Assembly: GCF_000230715.2 (NCBI RefSeq)
Contig: NC_019792.1
Span: 3,472,001-3,536,000 of the forward strand
Length of the DNA stretch: 64,000 nucleotides
Direction of reading: 5' to 3'
Source of the DNA: Natronobacterium gregoryi SP2
GTDB lineage: Archaea > Halobacteriota > Halobacteria > Halobacteriales > Natrialbaceae
Shown: piece by piece, positions 22,261 through 33,722 of the stretch
Numbering within the stretch: position 1 is the stretch's first letter
Layout: every line of letters starts with the position of its first letter
Made by a program: the position numbers and the translations under genes
The notes under the pieces: model-generated
What the model was told of the DNA's origin: nothing
Database searches by the model: none
The model's input: the letters and a program-made list of their open reading frames with translations, nothing else

Positions 22261-22946
22261 TGCTCTGTTGAATAGCGATCTAATCCGCCGATATCACTAG
22301 CTTAGAAGGATGAAGCCGAGGAATTCGACTCTGCCTATGGAAATCGATATCCTCGACTTCGTTGAGCAGTGTCGTGACCTAGCTAAACAAGCGTTGGGGA
22401 AGCACGCGGGCGAGCCCGCCAGCGGCGGGTTCGCCCGCTGGGTCCATGTCGTTCTCCACTGTTTTCGGCTCGAAAAGGGCCATAGCTACCGTGAAACGCC
22501 GAATCGGCTGAAGTATATGAGCGAGGTTCGTGACGTACTTGGTCTCGATCGAGAGAATCTCCCTGACTACAGCACGATCTACAAATCGTTCGACCGGCTG
22601 AAAATGTGGGTGTGGCGGGCGTTGCTGCGCATTTCAGCGCAGCAACACCCGCAGTCTGGCCACGCCGCTCTCGACAGCACGTTCTTTGATCGCCGCCGTT
22701 CTTCATCGTACTTCCGCCAGCGGTCAGGAAACACCGTACAGACGCTGAAAGTGACGACATTAACTGATATAGAGTCGCTCGCTGTTCTTGATGTCCATAT
22801 TACAGCACGGTGGAAGCACGATACGAAGACCGGACCGCAGATCGTCCGCCGGAACGCGGACGACCTGCAGTCCGTGGCTGCCGATAACGGGTTCCAAGAC
22901 TGGCACACTGAGTACGAAATCTCCGCACTTGATGTCGAGTATATTC
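22261..22946 (+). mobile_element. IS5-family insertion sequence, 3' end lost to the ISH8-type element
   Basis: The left end keeps GCTCTGTTGAA, as in the element at 10590. The transposase frame starts at 22310 and runs LDFVEQCRDLAKQALGKHAG, GLDRENLPDYSTIYKSFDRL, GHAALDSTFFDRRRSS (first catalytic Asp) and DIESLAVLDVHITARWKHDT. It is truncated after AADNGFQDWHTEYEISALD by the next IS at 22947. Two strong hairpins lie in the coding sequence (22406-22438 and 22615-22652). The copy is non-autonomous. Confidence 0.75.
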
Positions 22947-24339
22947 GTCTTTAGCTAAGACTCACACCTCGGTTGCGTAGCGGTAGCGAGCGTCTCTTGT
23001 AACACTGGGCGTTGCTGGTGGATCTTCTGTGCGTCGTCGATCAGTCGGTCAAGCAGCGGTGGCGGCGAGTAGCCAAGATATTCGCCAAGTTCGTGGAGGA
23101 TGAGCTGGGCGTGCGACCGGAAGGTCGCCGCCCAGCGTTCCGGCGGAAACACGATCTCACCGTCCGCCTGTTCGGTGACCAGATCGAGCAATTCACGACT
23201 CACGAGCAGTGACAGCAACGCCGCGTACAGCAGAATTTCGACAACATGCTTCTTTGTCGTGTCGAACTCGTCCAGTTCGTACTGCGTCTTCAACTCCCGA
23301 AACAGCAACTCCACCTCCCACCGACACCGATAGATCGTCCCTAGATCCGACGGCAGGAACTCCTCTCTCGGGAGATTCGTGATGTACAGGTGGTAGTCGT
23401 CGGCGTCCTCTTTCCGGACGCCGACGACGCGAAACCGCTTCGTATGGCGTGACTGCGTTCCGCCGTACGGTCTTCGGTCGAACTCGGCTTCGACTTCCAC
23501 GTCGATGTACTCGCGGTGCAGATCATCCACAACATCGTGGATCTGCTCACCCTCCAAGGGAATGGCGCGCCCGCGCCATTCCCGTAATTCCTCCGTTACG
23601 ACCGGATTTGCGCTCTCTTTCAGCCGACTCACGAAGTAGCCGTCGTTCTCATCGATCAACGCGAAGCGGCGGTACTTGAAGTAGGCTCGGTCGAACAGAA
23701 CGAGCCGATCTTCGAGCCACGATCCTGTGTGAAACAACGTGCTGTCGTGCGTTTTCTCGTCAGTCACGTCGAGACGTTCTATCGTCTGCTCAGTGGCATT
23801 GTGGAGCAGGTGGAGCTTCGCTCCAGCCTGCTCCTCCTTGCGAGCTTCGTACTCATCGGCAAGGAACTCGTGCAACCGCAGGACGGTTCCATCAGCGATC
23901 ATCACGTCCTTGAATCGGTCGATATCGGCGTCAACAGTGTCAGGGACAGCGACCTCGTCGAGGCCACGCTCGACGAGGTCGCGGAAGTACTCTGCGGGAG
24001 ACGGCGTCAACCGGTGATAGAAGCCGCCGGGAGAGGTCGTCTCATCAGCTGTCGAGTTGTAGCTGCGTCTGAAGCCAGCGAGTGTTCGGCTTTCGCCTGC
24101 GGCGAAGCCGAACACGAATGCCCAGACGAAGGCAGGGATCTGGAGCTTGCGGTCGCGTCCGATCACGCCGAGTTCCTCGGCGTGCTCTTCGAGGAACTCA
24201 GAGGGAAACAGTGTAGTGAGCCGACGCATAATCCGAGATGAGGAGGCATTGGTGGACACAGCCGTTGCCTCCTCATTCCTCTCGAAAAGATGTCTCGATA
24301 AGCCGCTGCTGTCACGTGGTTCTTCGCTTAGCTAAAGAC
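22947..24339 (-). mobile_element. ISH8-type (IS4 family) insertion sequence, 1,393 bp
   Basis: The ends share the inverted repeat GTCTTTAGCTAAG (22947-22959 and the complement at 24327-24339). One intact transposase gene fills the interior. The 10 bp outside each end differ (gagtatattc and agatagagtc), so no target duplication is present, implying recombination or deletion after insertion. On the left it truncates an IS5 element, on the right a helix-turn-helix gene. Confidence 0.8.
22955..24259 (-). CDS. ISH8-type IS4-family transposase (434 aa)
   Basis: The full-length frame has IS4 landmarks: DVMIADGTVLRLHEFLADEY (first catalytic Asp, ~residue 122), VLFDRAYFKYRRF (second Asp, ~190), and the YREK region YRCRWEVELLFRELKTQYEL (~310-330) with the catalytic Glu. 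No internal stop or frameshift was seen, so it may be active. The stop codon lies inside the terminal inverted repeat. The coding sequence carries at least six strong hairpins: 23396-23428, 23558-23583, 23803-23834, 23949-23982, 24082-24114 and 24164-24184. The second-to-last has 15-bp perfect arms with a 3-nt loop. Confidence 0.85.
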   Translation of the reverse strand: MSTNASSSRIMRRLTTLFPSEFLEEHAEELGVIGRDRKLQIPAFVWAFVFGFAAGESRTLAGFRRSYNSTADETTSPGGFYHRLTPSPAEYFRDLVERGLDEVAVPDTVDADIDRFKDVMIADGTVLRLHEFLADEYEARKEEQAGAKLHLLHNATEQTIERLDVTDEKTHDSTLFHTGSWLEDRLVLFDRAYFKYRRFALIDENDGYFVSRLKESANPVVTEELREWRGRAIPLEGEQIHDVVDDLHREYIDVEVEAEFDRRPYGGTQSRHTKRFRVVGVRKEDADDYHLYITNLPREEFLPSDLGTIYRCRWEVELLFRELKTQYELDEFDTTKKHVVEILLYAALLSLLVSRELLDLVTEQADGEIVFPPERWAATFRSHAQLILHELGEYLGYSPPPLLDRLIDDAQKIHQQRPVLQETLATATQPRCES

Positions 24340-24488
24340 AGATAGAGTCCACGGTAAATCGTCGACTGTGAGGCGTCTACCTCGTCGGCCAGGTAATTTT
24401 GATAAGCCGGGCCATCAACGAGGCGTTTGAATATCGACAATCGTTTGTGGAGGACCATGTAGGCGGCGTGCGCTTTCTCCGCATCCAT
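24340..24488 (-). pseudogene. Helix-turn-helix regulator truncated by the ISH8-type element
   Basis: From an ATG at 24488 the frame reads MDAEKAHAAYMVLHKRLSIF and DGPAYQNYLADEVDASQSTIYRGL, a typical winged-helix start with its recognition helix. It is cut at 24339 by the IS end. The wing and any effector domain are lost. Its natural target is unknown. Confidence 0.55.
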
Positions 24489-24704
24489 GATTCTATGTAC
24501 TGTGAAAATCAATTTATATCTAATGGAGATACCGATAGGTAGTATCTAAAATAATGGTGTTCGATATGGCATAGTCAAGCCAGATAATGTACGATATTCG
24601 CGCTCTGTGCCTATATTCAACAGGATAAAGAGCCGGAAGAAGATCCACGTGTTGTCGAATACCCTGATCAACGGTAACGAGCCATAATTTCGTTCTGATA
24701 GTGC

Positions 24705-25515
24705 ATGATTTTACCCGAACTCAGGAAAGGATGGGTGATGACAAACGGGTACCCGGAACAAAACGCCTCTCTTTCTACTGAATCAATCTCTAATGATACT
24801 GATTCATGGGAGGAACCGAACCGCAATCTTCTCGTCTCGATTGAGATCGAAAACGTCTCTCGAGAGCCTGGGGAAAATCCATATGATTGTTTCTACTCTG
24901 CTGATCCAGCTGATCCAAAACACTCTACCCATCGAGATGCTCTCATCACCGCCCACGAAATTATCGACGATCTCAACGACGATATCGACGTGGCCAATGC
25001 CGTGACGAACGCGAATATCCTACTCGAGAAATTCACCGATCCCTACTGGGATGACCACCCAGAAATCTACGAATTCGAGGTAATGCTCCGGTCGTTCATC
25101 TACGCCGAACTGCGTGGAATACGCTACCATCAAGACCTCGCAGACTTCCTCGAGCGCAACCCCGCGATTGCATTCACACTGAGCTTCGAACCGGACCTCG
25201 GTGACGAAAACGAGTATCTTGCCCTCCAAGTGTACCACACGCCGGAGACACCTCACCAGACGACGATCACCCCGTGTGCGAATCGTCGATTCCTCGATCG
25301 AGCGGAGAAGTTCATTATGGACGTCGTCGACGAGATCGAAGCCTACTGCCGCTGACACACCCACCTCGTCGAGATGCACTATCTGTGGAACAAGAATGGC
25401 AACATGAATCCAGGCGAGTCCGAGGAGAAACTCGACCCGGACGGTCTCATGAAACAGCAGATCCAACGGCTTGTGAATGAGTTGATGCGCCACGTCTGTC
25501 CGAAGATCAACTTCC
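24705..25515 (+). pseudogene. Degraded transposase remnant with an in-frame stop
   Basis: The frame from 24705 reads DHPEIYEFEVMLRSFIYAEL, RYHQDLADFLERNPAIAFTL and ETPHQTTITP, matching the N-terminal region of large haloarchaeal IS4/IS5-like transposases. A TGA at 25353-25355 interrupts it, and in-frame coding continues (HTHLVEMHYLWNKNGNMNP) until a new frame takes over near 25516. The catalytic C-terminal domain is not present. Assignment is from pattern recall, not a database match. Confidence 0.5.
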
Positions 25516-25830: not shown

Positions 25831-27624
25831 ATGAGACGGTCGGCACTCGAGGGAGTGCTCGCGGTCGGCTTTCTCGCGCTCGCCGCCGGCGTGCTCGTGG
25901 CTCGAGCGAATCCGGCGGTCGGGTACGAGTCGTCCGTCTACGCAGGATCACCTACGGCGACGTGGATCGCGTTCGTCGTCGCGCTGGCGATCGCCGTCGG
26001 AGCCACGATCGCCTGTCGCGGCCGGTACCAGGCGCTTGGCATCGGCCTCGGCGGGACGACCGTCACCGCGATCGTGAGTCTGCCGTTGATTCGCAACTAC
26101 CGGTTCTCGGGGATGGGCGACGCGATGACTCACATGGGCTGGACGCGAGACGTCGCCGACGGCGGACTCGCACCCCACGAACTGTTTTACCCCGCCGTCC
26201 ACTCGATCGGTGCCCTGTTACACCAGGTCGGCGGGTTCTCGATCGAACGGGCGTTGCTCGTGACGATGGTCGTTCTCTTCGTCCCGTTCCTGATCTTCGT
26301 TCCGCTCATCGTCCGGAACGTCAGCGGCAATCCACGGGCAGTCGGCTTCGGTGCGATCGTCTCCTGGATGGTGTTGCCCGTGAACAACGTCGCGACGCAC
26401 ATGGGCGTGCACACGAACTCCGTCGCGCTGTTTTTCGTCCCCGTCGTCGTCTTCGCCGTCGTCGCGTACCTCCGGCGACGGGCGACGATCGAACGCCTTC
26501 CGTTCGGACTGTCGCCGTTTAGCGTCCTGCTGTACCTGAGCGCGATCGGCCTGCTGCTGATTCACCCCCAGCAGATGATCAACGTCGTCGTCCTCGTCGG
26601 GGCCATCGCCGGCGTCCAGTACCTCGCTCGCTCTCGAGTAGACGAGCATCCGATCCTCGAGCATCCAACCGCCTACGCGCACACGGCCGTGCTCGGGGTG
26701 ATCTTTACCGTCTGGGCGGTCTCGAACGAGCGATTCAGGAACGCGGTCGCCGGACTCGTCTACGGGCTCGTGACCGCAGACGTCGGCGCCGGTGCGGAGG
26801 TCGACCAGCGTGGGGCCTCGCTCGCCGAGATCGGTGGCAGTCTCGGCGAACTGTTCGTCAGGATGTTCCTCGACGCGGCGATAATCGGCCTCGTCGTCGG
26901 TCTCTTTGTCCTGGTGATGTGGCTGGGGTGGACGAACACCGACCGGGAGACGGCCGCGTTCGTCACGTACCTCGGTCTCGCACTGATTCCACTCGGTGGG
27001 ATCCTGTTGGTGTATTTCGTCGGGACACCGACGATGGCGTTTCGACAGATCGGGTTCATCTACGTCGTCCTGACGATCATCGCGGGGATCGCCGTCGCAC
27101 ACCTCGCCGGCGGACTCTCCCGTTTCGTCACGAGACCGGGATCGGACGCCATCGTCGCGCTCGTGCTCGGGTCCTGTCTCGTGCTCGGATTGCTGACCGT
27201 CTACGCTTCACCACTCATCTACAGCCCGAGCCAGCACGTCACCGACCAGACGTTCAGCGGCTACGAGTCCGGCTTCGAACACGCCGCCGAGGATCGACCC
27301 CACGCCGGACTCGGCTACGACCCCTTCCGGTACGACCACGCGATCAACGGCCTCGAGCGAGAGGGAGCCCTGAGCGGCGCGACGATCGCGACTGGCGAGG
27401 TCGACCACGAACAGTTCGAGACCGGCAACTACACTGGGGCCTACCACGGCGTCGACTACTATCTGATCGCTACCGAGTACGACCTCACACGCGAGGTCGA
27501 CGTCTACCAGGAACTCTACTACAGCGAACAGTCACTCGAGACGCTCGAGATGTCTCCCGAGGCGAACAAGGTCATCTCGAACGACGAGTTCGAGATGTAC
27601 GCGGTCGACGGCGAAAACGAGTGA
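25831..27624 (+). CDS. Polytopic membrane protein, possible GT-C-like glycosyltransferase (597 aa)
   Basis: About twelve hydrophobic helices cover residues 10-470. The first outer loop contains RNYRFSGMGDAMTHMGWTRD, with an acidic/His pair in the position where GT-C glycosyltransferases carry their catalytic Asp. A soluble C-terminal part of ~120 residues follows, with many Tyr, Asp and Glu residues. These traits suggest a lipid-linked sugar transferase or a cell-envelope assembly protein, but I recognise no definite family. The gene stands alone between the transposon cluster and the beta-helix genes. Confidence 0.6.
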   Translation: MRRSALEGVLAVGFLALAAGVLVARANPAVGYESSVYAGSPTATWIAFVVALAIAVGATIACRGRYQALGIGLGGTTVTAIVSLPLIRNYRFSGMGDAMTHMGWTRDVADGGLAPHELFYPAVHSIGALLHQVGGFSIERALLVTMVVLFVPFLIFVPLIVRNVSGNPRAVGFGAIVSWMVLPVNNVATHMGVHTNSVALFFVPVVVFAVVAYLRRRATIERLPFGLSPFSVLLYLSAIGLLLIHPQQMINVVVLVGAIAGVQYLARSRVDEHPILEHPTAYAHTAVLGVIFTVWAVSNERFRNAVAGLVYGLVTADVGAGAEVDQRGASLAEIGGSLGELFVRMFLDAAIIGLVVGLFVLVMWLGWTNTDRETAAFVTYLGLALIPLGGILLVYFVGTPTMAFRQIGFIYVVLTIIAGIAVAHLAGGLSRFVTRPGSDAIVALVLGSCLVLGLLTVYASPLIYSPSQHVTDQTFSGYESGFEHAAEDRPHAGLGYDPFRYDHAINGLEREGALSGATIATGEVDHEQFETGNYTGAYHGVDYYLIATEYDLTREVDVYQELYYSEQSLETLEMSPEANKVISNDEFEMYAVDGENE

Positions 27625-27878: not shown

Positions 27879-27936
27879 GTGCGTAAATTCAATAGACTTC
27901 GTCAAGGAAAAGTTTATGAGTGTAACCCAGTGTTAC
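27879..27936 (+). promoter_or_regulatory. Promoter and operator of the first beta-helix gene
   Basis: A 40-bp block (GTAAATTCAATAGACTT, then AAGTTTATG) is nearly identical to the block before the second beta-helix gene at 29351-29390. The TTTAT box lies ~30 bp before the ATG, fitting a leaderless transcript. Immediately after it is a palindrome, GTAAC-ccagt-GTTAC (27922-27936), placed over the expected transcription start, as for a repressor site. Confidence 0.6.
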
Positions 27937-27944
27937 GCAATCGT

Positions 27945-28889
27945 ATGGCGCACCACCCCCGTACGTCCGAGACGGAGACGACTCCGACTACCGGTCGTAA
28001 CGACGGATTAACCCGCCGCAACTACGTGCGGTCGCTCGCAGCGGTCGCAACCGCAGCAACTTCGCTCGGCGCGGCCGGCACCGTTGTCGCCGACGATGAC
28101 TACGAGGTCATCGAAGCCGAAGGGCAAACGATCACCATCGACTCGGGTGAGACCTGGGAGAACAAACTGATCGACATGACCACCGGGCAAGACATCGTCG
28201 TCACCGCCCACGGCACCGACTGGACGATCCAAAACGTCGGCTTCGACGGGAAAAATACGTCCGGCACCGGCTCCGCCACGTTCGGTCTCTCCGACTCCGA
28301 CCCGAGCGGCTCGAGCACCGTCGAGAACGTCTATCTCGGCGACGGCTCCGACAGCCACAACGGAAGCTCGAGCGGTCACGGACAGACCGCCTTCTGGGTC
28401 GATCCCGACCACGCCGGCCACGTCGACTTCGAGAACGTCAACATCCAGGAGTTTGCGGACAACGCGATCTACGCGTCCGCGCCCGGTAACGCCGGCGGCG
28501 GCACGATCCACGTCGACCGCTGTTTCGCCGCGAACTGTTATGTCTCGCACTTCCGTCTCGCGACCGAGGGGAGCACGGTGACGAACTCGAGTGTCTACGT
28601 CGACGACTCGGGCTACCAGGGCCGCGGTATCTGGGCCTGGGCACCTGGCACGGTCGAAGTCGAGGGGTGCCAGATCGAGATGCACGGGCACAACGTCGCC
28701 ATCGACGCCGGCGCGAACGGCAACCCAACCGAGGTCCTCGTCAGTGACACCGACTACGACGATGTCGCCGGTATCGGCGAGAACGCCGGTTCGACCGTCG
28801 AACTCGAGGACGATGTCGGCACGGACCCTGATGCGTTCGTCCCTGACGGCGTCCCGCAAAGCGCGGAGGAAGCCGCCTCCGGCAACTGA
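27945..28889 (+). CDS. Tat-exported pectate-lyase-like beta-helix protein (314 aa)
   Basis: The ATG at 27945 gives a protein with a twin-arginine signal (TRRNYVRSLAAVATAAT, ~residues 24-40), then GTVVADDDYEV. The rest is a right-handed parallel beta-helix: short repeated strands ending in Asn/Asp turns (DWTIQNVGFDGKN, STVENVYLGDGSDSHN, HVDFENVNIQEFADNAI). Proteins of this fold bind or cleave acidic polysaccharides, but catalytic residues cannot be assigned. The next gene encodes a longer paralogue under the same promoter type. An upstream in-frame start at 27879 would run through the promoter and is rejected. Confidence 0.75.
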   Translation: MAHHPRTSETETTPTTGRNDGLTRRNYVRSLAAVATAATSLGAAGTVVADDDYEVIEAEGQTITIDSGETWENKLIDMTTGQDIVVTAHGTDWTIQNVGFDGKNTSGTGSATFGLSDSDPSGSSTVENVYLGDGSDSHNGSSSGHGQTAFWVDPDHAGHVDFENVNIQEFADNAIYASAPGNAGGGTIHVDRCFAANCYVSHFRLATEGSTVTNSSVYVDDSGYQGRGIWAWAPGTVEVEGCQIEMHGHNVAIDAGANGNPTEVLVSDTDYDDVAGIGENAGSTVELEDDVGTDPDAFVPDGVPQSAEEAASGN

Positions 28890-29350
28890 TCGACTACCCC
28901 GCTGACGCAGCTCTCCGTGGTGGGATTGCTGTGAGTCCGTCTCGGTGGTCTGCGACGTAACGCCGCCCCGGTTCCCGCTGACGTGGTTTTGTGTTCGCGG
29001 TTCGGTTTCTCGTTTCGCGTAGTCGAGGACCGTTCGCTCGGCGCGCTTTCATCCGGTTTGCTGTCAGTCAGTTTCGGCGCGACCGCAGGAGCTCGCGGTC
29101 GCGCCGGGGCATCGGGACAGCAGTCCGTATCACTCACTCTGTCCAGGGATCGACGCGCGAGCGTGTTTTTCGGCCACTCGAGTGCCGGTAATTCTGTATT
29201 ACCCGCCAGTTCGCGGTAACGACCGACGCTCGAAACGGGCCGATACGGGTAATACGGTATTACTCTCGACATCGCGTTCCGATTTCTGTCGCTTTTATCG
29301 ACGACAAACGTAGAAAGTTCTATGAATGAATAGAACGTACGTTGTTGAAG
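28890..29350. other. Intergenic region between the beta-helix genes
   Basis: It holds intergenic palindrome copy B (29051-29132) and two palindromic operator-like sites, GGTAATTCTGTATTACC (29187-29203) and GGTAATACGGTATTAC (29248-29263). No gene is supported. Confidence 0.55.
29051..29132. repeat. GATACGG-family intergenic palindrome, copy B
   Basis: The left end reads CGGTTTGCTGTCAGTCAGTT, the core is GCGCGACCGC facing GCGGTCGCGC, and the right end ACAGCAGTCCGTATC is the complement of the family's left end. It is the most complete copy of this core type. Confidence 0.7.
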
Positions 29351-29407
29351 TCAGTAAATTTTATACTTAGTGTAAGGGAAAGTTTATGCCGGTAGTTTCG
29401 TATTACC
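29351..29407 (+). promoter_or_regulatory. Promoter and operator of the second beta-helix gene
   Basis: The block AGTAAATTTTATACTTAGTG, then AAGTTTATG, mirrors the promoter at 27879. The palindrome GGTAGTTTCGTATTACC (29391-29407) lies between the TTTAT box and the ATG at 29414. A further copy of the same motif (GGTAATTCTGAATTAC, 29486-29501) sits inside the first codons of the gene. Confidence 0.6.
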
Positions 29408-29413
29408 GAGTAC

Positions 29414-31195
29414 ATGGCACGCGAACCTTCGGTACTGGACGACGAAGCGGTCGCCGACGACGACACTACGTCGGGAGCTGGCGGTGGTAATTCTGAATTA
29501 CTCGGCCGTCGCTCCTACGTGAAACTGGCGGGTGCAACGACTGTGGCTGCTGCAACGACAGTTCCCGGCACTGCAAGCGCCGACGAGGAATACGACGAGA
29601 TCACCGCCCAGGGACAGACAATTACGATCGGTCGTGGCGAAACGTTCGAGAACAAGCTAATCGATCTCACGACCGGCGACACCGTCACGTTGCTCGTCGA
29701 AGGCGGCGACTCCGTCATCCGCAACGTCGGGTTCGAGGGTCTCCACCGCGGGAGCGGGTTCATGCTCTCGATCACCGCCCCCAGCGGGGACGTTCTCATC
29801 GAGAACGTCTACCTCGGCGACGGGTCGACCAAAGCAGGCGGGAGCCACACCCACGGTCCGGGTGCCGTCTTCATGCATCGCAACGCAAACTGCGACGTCA
29901 CGTTCCGTCACTGCAACGTCCAGGGCTACCCCAACAACGGCTTCTACTGTTCCAACACCGCCTACGGTGGCTCGGCCCGTTTCGAGAGCTGTTACGGAAA
30001 GAACAACGGCGTCTCCACGTTCCGCGTCGCCGGTGGCAACGACGCTATCGTCGACTGCGTCGCGTACAACGACAACACCGACTACGGCCCCGGCTGGGGC
30101 GGCTACGTCGAAGACGCCGGCCGACCGCTGTGGGTCTGGCCCGGTGGGACACCCACGATCGAAGATTCGGAGTTCGCCGCCGGGTCGTATCCGTACGCTG
30201 CGGTCGTGCGCGGCAGCGGCTCCGCCCAGATGACCGATGGTGCGATTCAGGGACCGGTCCAGGGCAGCGGCCTCCAGCGCTCGGGCATCTCGCGTTCGGC
30301 CGACCTCTCGATTCCCGACGGCGTCCCGACCTCGGCCCAGGAGGCTGCAGCGGGCAAGTCCGTCGACGACTCGAGTCCGGACAGCGGCGACGACGAGGAC
30401 GAACTCCCCCACGTCCTGCTGTTCGAGGGCGACGACGTCGACGTCTCCCGGTACGAGTTCGTCGTCGATGGCACGGTCGAACCGACGACCGACGACGGCG
30501 CGACCATCGACGCCGAAACCGAGATTGAGGACGGATTCGTCCACGGCGTCGTCGCCGACTGGAAAGACGCCTTCCGGTTCGACGGCGACCTCGAGACGCT
30601 GACCGTCGACGGGCCGGCGACGGTGGTTCTCGAGGGCGAAGAGATCGATCCCGACGAGTACGGCGAGGAACTGCCCCACGTTCTCACTGTCGAGGGTCAG
30701 GGTGAGCCGACGAGCTTCGAAGTTACGGTCGACGGGACGGTCGAGTACGACGGCGAGGCAGATCCGGACGACGACGCGACGACCGTCTCTGGTTCGACGG
30801 TCCAGAGCTCCCTCACCGACGAGAGCCAGACGTTCCGGTTCTCGGGCGCGATCACCGACGTGACGATCATCGAGGGCGAGGCCGTCGTCTCCGTCGACGG
30901 CGAGGAGATCGATCCAGACGAGTACGGTGACGACGAGCTGTTGCCTCACGCGATCCTCGTCGACGGCACCGGAACCGACGGGCCGACGTCGTACTCCTTC
31001 GTGGTGTCGGGTCGTGCCGTCGAGGCGACGTTTCAGGAACTCACGATCGACGACGAACAGGTGTACGAGGACGGCGTCGTCCGTGGCGTCGTCGGCGACG
31101 AACGCGACGCTTACTGGTTCGACGGTGGGTTCGAAGACTTCACGTTGCTTGGCGACGCGACGGTCGACGTCCAGTACAACGCACGCGAACAGTAG
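29414..31195 (+). CDS. Tat-exported beta-helix protein with three C-terminal ~90-residue repeats (593 aa)
   Basis: The Tat signal is LLGRRSYVKLAGATTVAAAT (~residues 29-48), followed by SADEEYDEITAQGQTITIG as in the paralogue. Residues ~60-310 form the beta-helix. After a Ser/Asp linker, three repeats follow, each starting LPHVLLFEG/LPHVLTVEG/LPHAILVDG. Each contains FRFDG/FRFSG/YWFDG, and the first two end in EEIDPDEYG. The repeats look like beta-sandwich carbohydrate- or cell-wall-binding modules. The protein probably works outside the cell on polysaccharide with its shorter paralogue. Confidence 0.75.
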   Translation: MAREPSVLDDEAVADDDTTSGAGGGNSELLGRRSYVKLAGATTVAAATTVPGTASADEEYDEITAQGQTITIGRGETFENKLIDLTTGDTVTLLVEGGDSVIRNVGFEGLHRGSGFMLSITAPSGDVLIENVYLGDGSTKAGGSHTHGPGAVFMHRNANCDVTFRHCNVQGYPNNGFYCSNTAYGGSARFESCYGKNNGVSTFRVAGGNDAIVDCVAYNDNTDYGPGWGGYVEDAGRPLWVWPGGTPTIEDSEFAAGSYPYAAVVRGSGSAQMTDGAIQGPVQGSGLQRSGISRSADLSIPDGVPTSAQEAAAGKSVDDSSPDSGDDEDELPHVLLFEGDDVDVSRYEFVVDGTVEPTTDDGATIDAETEIEDGFVHGVVADWKDAFRFDGDLETLTVDGPATVVLEGEEIDPDEYGEELPHVLTVEGQGEPTSFEVTVDGTVEYDGEADPDDDATTVSGSTVQSSLTDESQTFRFSGAITDVTIIEGEAVVSVDGEEIDPDEYGDDELLPHAILVDGTGTDGPTSYSFVVSGRAVEATFQELTIDDEQVYEDGVVRGVVGDERDAYWFDGGFEDFTLLGDATVDVQYNAREQ

Positions 31196-31424: not shown

Positions 31425-32024
31425 TCACTCGATCCGGGAAAGTTTGCCGTTGACGGTTTGTTCTTGCTGTCGGTTTCGAACGGTGTGGACGACCGACAGT
31501 GAGAAGAGTGCGACGAGGACGACGGCGGCGAGTGCGAGCGTCGGAATCGCTGCCAGCAACGGGACGTTAAAGAGTGCGCCGCCGACGAGCACGACCCCGA
31601 GTGCACTCAATGTCCCGTACCAGCGATCCCACCGATCCTGCTGGTGGGAGTCCGTATCGAGGTACATCATCAAGAGATCGGCGTTCTCCGACAGCGAGAT
31701 CAGCCCCCGATCCTGATCGTACTCGACGATTCCGGCGTCGTCCATCTTGGGGAGGTGGGTCTGGTAGAGAGCGACGTATACGCGCTTTCGTTGATCGGAA
31801 CTCAGGGCGTTTACGCTCGTATCGTTCTCCCAGGCGGCGATCTGCTCGGCGAGCTCACCGAGCGTGACCGTCTCCTCTGCCTCGAGCAGGTAAGCGAGGA
31901 CTTCTCGACGGCGGCGGTTCTTGAGGAGTTCGAAAATGACGTCCTTCGAGAGGCGTTCGTCGTCCTCGGAGTCACCGACGGACGATGCAATCTCGTCGGG
32001 GAGAGAGGTATCGATCGACGACAT
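31425..32024 (-). CDS. DUF7344-type winged-helix regulator with two membrane helices (199 aa)
   Basis: Residues ~25-115 are a winged helix of the DUF7344 kind (DVIFELLKNRRRREVLAYLL, VYVALYQTHLPKMDDAGIVE, YDQDRGLISLSENADLL). The C-terminal ~70 residues contain two membrane helices (TLSALGVVLVGGALFNVPLL and TLALAAVVLVALFSLSVV) and a basic tail. A membrane-tethered DNA-binding protein would sense envelope signals. Its place beside the beta-helix operators makes it a candidate regulator of them, but this is only proximity. Confidence 0.75.
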   Translation of the reverse strand: MSSIDTSLPDEIASSVGDSEDDERLSKDVIFELLKNRRRREVLAYLLEAEETVTLGELAEQIAAWENDTSVNALSSDQRKRVYVALYQTHLPKMDDAGIVEYDQDRGLISLSENADLLMMYLDTDSHQQDRWDRWYGTLSALGVVLVGGALFNVPLLAAIPTLALAAVVLVALFSLSVVHTVRNRQQEQTVNGKLSRIE

Positions 32025-32750
32025 TATCGTGTTCCTCCGGCGGCAGGTGTCGCAGTTCGAGCCCGGCTCCGCCAGCGTTTGCGGTCGAGAACGCTACTGG
32101 AGTATGACCCCCGCAGCGACCGCTGTACTTCCAAACGGCGATTCGCAGTCACGATTGACACACCAAGTTGTACACCAACAGAGATACTCTTAAGCACGGC
32201 CACGTTTCGCATCGGCTGCAAAGGGCGTACGGGACGACTTCGTCGCGCCGGGTGCGGTCGGGAACGGCGACACCGTCGCTGATAGCCGAGAGCGTCACTC
32301 ACAGGTCGCTGGTATCGACCGATTTGGGGAGTGTATCCGTGGCGTATGCCGCGACAGAGACGAATGCAGTGATACGCCAGTGAACTCCGATGAACGACTC
32401 GGCAACTCGTCACTGGTCCGACGTTCGACTCCACCGATATAAATTCGAGCGACAGTTTGGTACCGAAAGGAGACTTTACGTGATGAACTGACGATTTACA
32501 CCGGTGGACGGACGTAACAATCGTCACGATTCATGTGTTGGTTTCCCATTGTCGGAGACGGGTCGAAGCGATCACTCGCGGTCGCTTCACCCGGAGACGA
32601 CCGATGGGACACGATTTCGGCGCGGGCACGGCGGCCTAGCAACTGGTCGGCCTGCGTCGAACTCTCCGCTCGACCTGCAATCGTAAGTCGGGGTTTCCTA
32701 TGAAACCATGGTACCTCCTTACAATGGCTGCAGGACTGTCTTCGCTACGG
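32025..32750. other. Long intergenic region between the DUF7344 regulator and tfb
   Basis: This ~725-bp region separates divergent genes. A TATA-like motif (gatataaat) lies near 32438 and a minus-strand cttaaga near 32190. The frame at 32168-32383 has no features. No repeat of the two palindrome families is seen. Confidence 0.4.
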
Positions 32751-33722
32751 ATGACACAGCCCATCATCGATCACGCAAGAAGTGAGACAAGCGAACGGGA
32801 ACAGAAACGGGAACGAGGAACGGAGCTGTGTCCTGACTGTGAAACCGACACGATCGTCCACGACCCCGACCGCGGCGAACGAGTCTGTGACGAGTGTGGG
32901 CTCGTTCTAACCGAAGACCCCATCGACTACGGTCCCGAGTGGCGCGCGTTCAACGCACAGGAACACGACGAACTCTCTCGAGTGGGTGCACCCCTGACCC
33001 AGTCGATGCACGACCGCGGGCTGACGACGACGATCGACTGGCGAAACAAGGACGCCAACGGCCGGTCGATGTCCGCCGAGAAGCACGGCCAGATCCATCG
33101 GCTTCGCGTCTGGCAGGAACGAATCCGGACGAAAAACGCCGGCGAGCGGAACCTCAAGTATGCACTCTCGGAGATCGACCGGATGGTCAGCGCACTCGGC
33201 GTCCCCAACCCGGTCAAGGAAACCGCGAGCGTCATCTACCGTCGGGCTCTCCAACAGGACCTCATTCGTGGTCGGTCGATCGAAGGTGTCGCGACCAGTG
33301 CCCTCTACACCGCCTGTCGCAAAGAGGACATCCCGCGCAGCCTCGAGGAAGTGACCGCCGTCTCCCGGGTCGATCAGCGCGAAATCGGGCGAACCTACCG
33401 ATACATCGCCGACGAACTCGGCATCAACTTAGAGCCGACGAACCCGCGACAGTTCGTGCCCAGGTTCTGCTCAGAACTCGACGTCGACAAAGACGTCGAG
33501 ACGAAAGCGATCGACATTATCGACGAGACGACCGAGAAAGGGCTTCATTCGGGTAAATCACCGACGGGGTTCGCGGCGGCAGCCATTTACGCGGCTGGGC
33601 TGCTCTGTGACGAGACGATCCCACAGCGAGCGGTCGCAGAAACCGCCCAGACCACCGTCGTCACCGTCAGAAACAGATACAGGGAACAACTGGACGCGAT
33701 CGACCAGACGCCGGCTACATGA
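32751..33722 (+). CDS. tfb: Transcription initiation factor IIB (TFB, 323 aa)
   Basis: The N-terminal zinc ribbon is CPDC ... CDEC (~residues 27-49). The B-finger follows (DYGPEWRAFNAQEHDELSRV), then two cyclin-like repeats beginning NLKYALSEIDRMVSALGVP and DVETKAIDIIDETTEKG. The DNA-contacting second-repeat helices (QRAVAETAQTTVVTVRNRY) are present. TFB recruits RNA polymerase with TBP to TATA promoters, and haloarchaea have several paralogues. The start at 32751 gives the usual MTxP N-terminus; the in-frame ATG at 32700 adds 17 untypical residues. Confidence 0.9.
   Translation: MTQPIIDHARSETSEREQKRERGTELCPDCETDTIVHDPDRGERVCDECGLVLTEDPIDYGPEWRAFNAQEHDELSRVGAPLTQSMHDRGLTTTIDWRNKDANGRSMSAEKHGQIHRLRVWQERIRTKNAGERNLKYALSEIDRMVSALGVPNPVKETASVIYRRALQQDLIRGRSIEGVATSALYTACRKEDIPRSLEEVTAVSRVDQREIGRTYRYIADELGINLEPTNPRQFVPRFCSELDVDKDVETKAIDIIDETTEKGLHSGKSPTGFAAAAIYAAGLLCDETIPQRAVAETAQTTVVTVRNRYREQLDAIDQTPAT

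Follow-up and report, generated by a model that had tools for sequence, protein, structure and literature searches.

The palindromes that surround two neighbouring genes for exported proteins in the genome of Natronobacterium gregoryi SP2 may well be the operators of a multi-site switch that represses the gene for a secreted beta-helix protein, served by a dimeric winged-helix regulator that is most likely the DUF7344 protein encoded nearby. We give this reading a probability of about 0.52; binding, looping, repression, the identity of the regulator and the function of the target are all points that we infer. That a specific regulator grips the conserved sites is, judging from their sequences, almost certain, because they have been preserved across the family even at the cost of rare codons.

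An earlier sequence-only reading had reported five palindromes around two beta-helix genes, and inspection of the window (the whole stretch of 64,000 nucleotides analyzed here) recovered all five where they had been placed. Near gene 2, four sites fit GGTAAT-N5-ATTACC perfectly or with a single mismatch: that at 29187 is the sole perfect copy of the genome, and those at 29248, 29391 and 29486 have one mismatch each, which at 29391 gives a GGTAGT left half. The shared GGTAAT/ATTACC half-sites that had been ascribed to all five are thus present in these four, but the site at the gene 1 promoter has only the GTAA...TTAC core in common with them (GTAAC-N5-GTTAC variant). A sixth site, not reported previously, is a variant inside gene 1 that precedes the RR codons of this gene. 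The gene 1 promoter follows the same plan as that of gene 2 with weaker sites, and in most of 18 other genomes its promoter site is kept as GTAAS-N5-GTTAC and its intragenic site as GTAAY-N5-RTTAA before RR.

Features of the gene 1 and gene 2 region, in window coordinates; operators are putative.
Feature	Sequence	Position	Strand	Remark
DUF6541 membrane protein		25831..27624	+	conserved neighbour upstream of gene 1
BRE/TATA of gene 1	GGAAAAGTTTATG	27906-27918		counterpart of the gene 2 element
Variant operator, gene 1 promoter	GTAACCCAGTGTTAC	27922..27936	+	between TATA and ATG
Gene 1, Tat-signal protein		27945..28889	+	314 aa; gene 2 paralogue, 39% identity
Variant intragenic site, gene 1	GTAACGACGGATTAA	27997..28011	+	directly ahead of RR codons
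Distal operator	GGTAATTCTGTATTACC	29187..29203	+	61 bp from the -166 site; zone occupied in 48/87 copies
Upstream operator	GGTAATACGGTATTACT	29248..29264	+	-166 here, about -168 in family; 61/87 copies
Conserved upstream element	CAGTAAATTTTA; family consensus TCTGTAAATTTTA	29352..29363	+	from conservation profile
BRE/TATA of gene 2	GGGAAAGTTTATG	29376..29388	+	from conservation profile, 80 copies
Proximal operator	GGTAGTTTCGTATTACC	29391..29407	+	interval between TATA box and start codon; -23 here, -24 ±1 in family
Gene 2, Tat-signal beta-helix protein		29414..31195	+	593 aa; three C-terminal beta repeats in model
First 26 nt of gene 2	ATGGCACGCGAACCTTCGGTACTGGA	29414..29439	+	constrained at DNA level
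Intragenic operator	GGTAATTCTGAATTACT	29486..29502	+	gene 2 codons 25-30; 71/87 copies
DUF7344 protein		31425..32024	-	199 aa; winged-helix domain and two predicted C-terminal membrane helices; candidate regulator
TFB (archaeal TFIIB)		32700..33722	+	conserved neighbour

The motif is rare. At up to two mismatches the window contains four matches against 0.55 expected, a number reached in none of 100 shuffles. The whole genome, a single haloarchaeal contig of 3,788,356 bases, has 1 exact match, 9 at up to one mismatch and 55 at up to two (20 for the reversed pattern at this last threshold), and four of the 9 fall inside 316 bp at gene 2. Across 125 genomes of the family, 68 exact palindromes (the sum over the table of matches) compare with 1 for the reversed control. 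A chance origin of the cluster is ruled out by the window, genome and family counts, and with only 9 sites at up to one mismatch in 3.79 Mb the motif is not generally common, an objection that the sequence-only reading had itself foreseen.

Relatives of gene 2, at any distance, are present in 119 of the 125 family genomes surveyed, and we counted the array in Natrialbaceae over the 87 gene 2 family copies that have a clear ATG start. A proximal site at -23 to -25 is found in 80 of these copies, from 16 genera, so that conservation at orthologous promoters, on which the earlier proposal depended, is borne out. A second site lies at -164 to -169 in 61 copies, a further upstream site is present in 48 and the intragenic site in 71, and this fixed four-position array recurs in orthologues of up to 16 genera. 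Several copies of one palindrome are accordingly found at one promoter, as in multi-operator systems of the lac/gal type; the -24 site, standing between the TATA box and the ATG in 80/87 copies, overlaps the core promoter if the transcription start is where we place it. The combined TATA-plus-operator pattern TTTATNNNGGTARTNNNNNATTACY has 53 exact matches in the 125 genomes (reversed control, 0), of which comparison of coordinates assigns 52 to a gene 2 start and 1 to another place.

The palindrome on its own is more widely distributed. Assigned by coordinates, 30 of the 68 exact copies lie at beta-helix genes and 38 elsewhere, including two in a genome (G012) that is without the DUF7344 orthologue and others that, in several genomes belonging to a single genus, precede a gene identified by eye as of the creatininase family (L205, L206, L210, L214, L216, L293, L294). 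The predicted regulon of the palindrome is therefore wider than gene 2, and the suggestion of a dedicated regulator holds for the TATA-plus-operator architecture, nearly exclusive to gene 2 (52/53), but not for the palindrome, with 38/68 exact copies elsewhere, creatininase-family promoters included. When the exact sites away from gene 2 were scanned for a transcription factor under its own control, no recurrent one came to light. In a single case (L284:1541-2028, genome G025) an exact palindrome stands 146 bp upstream of a gene that, by eye, encodes a DUF7344-like regulator. In the N. gregoryi genome itself, a complete TATA-plus-operator promoter (L004, G000:C1:1967804-1967828) precedes a gene for a 246-aa protein, TraB-like by eye; this protein had no Pfam match, and an exact-pattern search of the family gave no counterpart of its promoter.

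The conserved neighbourhood points to the DUF7344 protein as the regulator. In the gene order DUF6541 protein, gene 1, gene 2, DUF7344, TFB, DUF7344 adjoins or lies near gene 2 in all 18 genomes first examined and TFB is kept in 17, with insertions in three; more divergent genomes show the same proximity of DUF7344. The N. gregoryi protein scores 119.8 bits against PF24035 (cut-off 27.8), which places it in this family, and its DNA-binding domain is highly conserved. Orthologues with at least 66% identity occur in about 110 of the 125 genomes, and the genomes without one mostly also lack gene 2. An exception, G094, has gene copies without a DUF7344 orthologue; these copies have lost the upstream sites and keep the intragenic one in degraded form. 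In four genomes of another family, TFB, DUF7344 (57-59%), beta-helix-type genes and a DUF6541-like membrane protein lie together on short contigs, and in one of them (G201) two sites at -168 and +73, separated by 240 bp, bracket the start of an RR-bearing gene that has the same N-terminus, beginning MARE; we regard this module as a diverged copy of that in Natrialbaceae. The structure model of DUF7344 is of low confidence (pLDDT 56), though a winged-helix outline is consistent with it. Foldseek with this model returned only non-significant winged-helix matches (E ≥ 0.09), a PDB sequence search with the DUF7344 profile gave no match at E ≤ 1, and a search for literature under the name DUF7344 found none, with no function recorded. 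Upstream of the DUF6541 gene, the window also holds a transposase gene and fragments (22310-25352).

The array and the repression could be as we propose and yet be served by an unlinked regulator, winged-helix or another dimeric protein, with DUF7344 tied to TFB and an XPB-like helicase in some other way; we consider this a real possibility, if on the unlikely side. It would account for the DUF7344 promoter, where we found no GGTAAT operator and instead a conserved motif of its own, for genus g24, where the sites are absent and DUF7344-TFB persists without a beta-helix gene in the vicinity, and for the exact sites at unrelated promoters. It would also fit the genomes in which DUF7344 is damaged and the operators are intact, namely G014 (L116) and G100 (L302), with a stop codon inside the gene, and G013 (L301), where 27 residues spanning the first membrane helix are deleted. 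The conserved synteny, the co-absence and the recurrence of the module in another family speak against an unlinked regulator, and the lesions could be recent, possibly reflecting loss during cultivation. The sequence-only reading had named DUF7344 as a candidate; in view of the circumstantial support (synteny in 18/18 genomes, module in another family), the counter-evidence (no operator at its own promoter, intact sites beside damaged genes) and the perhaps recent date of the lesions, we rate it the best candidate, still unproven. In G096 (L303) the DUF7344 match, near a contig end, is without its N-terminus. About 140 nt upstream of DUF7344 (32145-32175, minus strand), a strongly conserved sequence, TTGGTGTACAACTTGGTGTGTCAATCGTGA, follows just past a TATA-like CTTAAG and includes a possible mini-ORF (GTG TGT CAA TCG TGA). 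DUF7344 might have a leader element here, or a site for autoregulation.

Upstream of the promoter, the spacing of the sites is informative. The two upstream sites are 32, 41, 51-52, 61-62 or 73-74 bp apart, that is, in steps of one helical turn, and their phase at 10.5 bp is R = 0.89 (14 genus-by-spacing values, 20,000 random draws; p about 5e-5, which is optimistic because the genomes are related). Other site pairs show a weaker helical phase. The helical-turn spacing of the upstream pair favours co-operative binding to a single face of the DNA, and the earlier suggestion of a sequence-specific regulator with several co-operating sites is supported by the rarity and conservation of the sites, their placement between TATA box and start, and this phasing. 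An activator or dual regulator, whose upstream sites recruit it to assist TFB/TBP and whose -24 and +73 sites serve feedback, would also make sense of several features: the intact sites are mostly upstream, the left half of the -24 site in gene 2 copies is nearly always the imperfect GGTAGT, and the conserved element TCTGTAAATTTTA, a possible activator site, sits upstream of the BRE in both genes. We nonetheless think activation quite improbable, since the -24 site overlaps the region that the polymerase must occupy and the +73 site lies downstream of the start.

The site at 29486 had been placed within the first codons of gene 2; it is indeed intragenic, but at nt +73 to +89, in codons 25-30, right before the twin-arginine codons. 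Its distance to the RR codons is 21 nt in 70/70 copies in which RR was located, the Leu-Leu encoded there is nearly invariant, and by inspection the palindrome could fold into a hairpin of 6 bp, all of which would suit a constraint from the Tat-signal protein or an mRNA hairpin rather than an operator. However, the Leu codon of the site is TTA in 70/70 copies, whereas TTA makes up only 0.5% of 872 Leu codons in 35 gene bodies, and the Asn codon is AAT in 57/64 against 5.4% in gene bodies, while the neighbouring Leu codon is free (CTC, CTG, CTA and CTT are all used). The site is preserved at the DNA level despite rare codons, and protein constraint, which cannot explain this excess next to a freely varying codon, is rejected as its cause; the same palindrome also occurs upstream of the promoter, from which it is not transcribed, and a reading without an operator is therefore highly improbable. 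The start of gene 2 is also conserved at the DNA level across the family: codon 2 is GCA in 79/80 copies, codon 5 encodes Pro, Ser, Arg, Leu or His with T as third base almost throughout, and the conserved stretch has a motif near TTCGGTA. Recombination sites for gene inversion or cassette exchange, which the inverted gene 2 (relative to gene 1) of several g16 genomes and the 5' cassette common to the paralogues might suggest, are hardly credible, given the fixed distances to the start codon, sites that travel with the gene, and a conserved neighbourhood with no linked recombinase.

The target can be described in outline. The AlphaFold2 model of gene 2 (mean pLDDT 77) shows a beta-helix followed by three beta repeats, and Foldseek matched it to phage tail fibres, depolymerases and pectate lyase, with just one match at E ≤ 0.001 (a phage tail fibre, E 6.8e-4; pectate lyase Pel9A, probability 1.00). 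With the RR Tat motif in its sequence and the fold from AlphaFold2 and Foldseek, the protein falls into the class of Tat-exported parallel beta-helix proteins; Pfam and NCBIfam models matched neither gene 1 nor gene 2. The genome has a third paralogue, also with the intragenic site, whose neighbours are a glycosyltransferase, a polysaccharide deacetylase and a protein that weakly matches DUF6541. We infer a role of the gene 2 protein in surface polysaccharide.

In bacteria, control through several operators, an intragenic one among them, is well established, as in the repression loops of lac and gal in Escherichia coli. The present array resembles these in having several copies of one palindrome at the core promoter, upstream and inside the gene, with one pair helically phased; it differs in its archaeal TATA/TFB promoter and in an intragenic operator set in Tat-signal codons, and its regulator, binding and looping are putative. 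One literature search on DNA looping turned up no example from archaea, which is thin evidence. The operators of NrpR in methanogens, GGTA-N6-TACC, have the same GGTA/TACC ends, but the spacing here is GGTA-N9-TACC.

In the mechanism that we favour, a dimeric winged-helix regulator, most likely the neighbouring DUF7344 protein, would bind the palindrome and, at -24, between TATA box and start site, would keep RNA polymerase from loading. Binding at about -168 and at -200 to -250 would be co-operative, on one helix face, and the +73 site, an auxiliary operator in signal-peptide codons, would close a repression loop or block elongation, the non-proximal sites raising occupancy through co-operative binding or looping. 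The controlled protein would be secreted, have a beta-helix fold and probably act on surface polysaccharide. We propose the block at -24 by analogy with sptA, since palindromes downstream of the TATA box are documented as lowering expression in haloarchaea (PMC6085418). In sptA (SPS3) and in xacR, over the WW motif, semi-palindromic elements likewise lie between TATA box and transcription start and are read as repressor sites, but the present sites have another sequence, form a multi-site array with an intragenic member and are conserved family-wide (PMC6085418).

Because the regulator is probably DUF7344, with its predicted membrane helices, the switch may respond to the condition of the membrane. 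In a more speculative form, which we think unlikely to hold in full, membrane-anchored DUF7344 would hold the promoter in a phased-operator repression loop, would make secretion of a surface-polysaccharide protein depend on the condition of the envelope, and would belong to a module that moves between families. The natural variation in about 90 gene copies already yields a footprint, in rare codons kept for the sake of the DNA sequence and in spacings that change only by helical turns. The array is thus a system that lends itself well to testing, and it offers the DUF7344 family, so far undescribed, a first candidate target.
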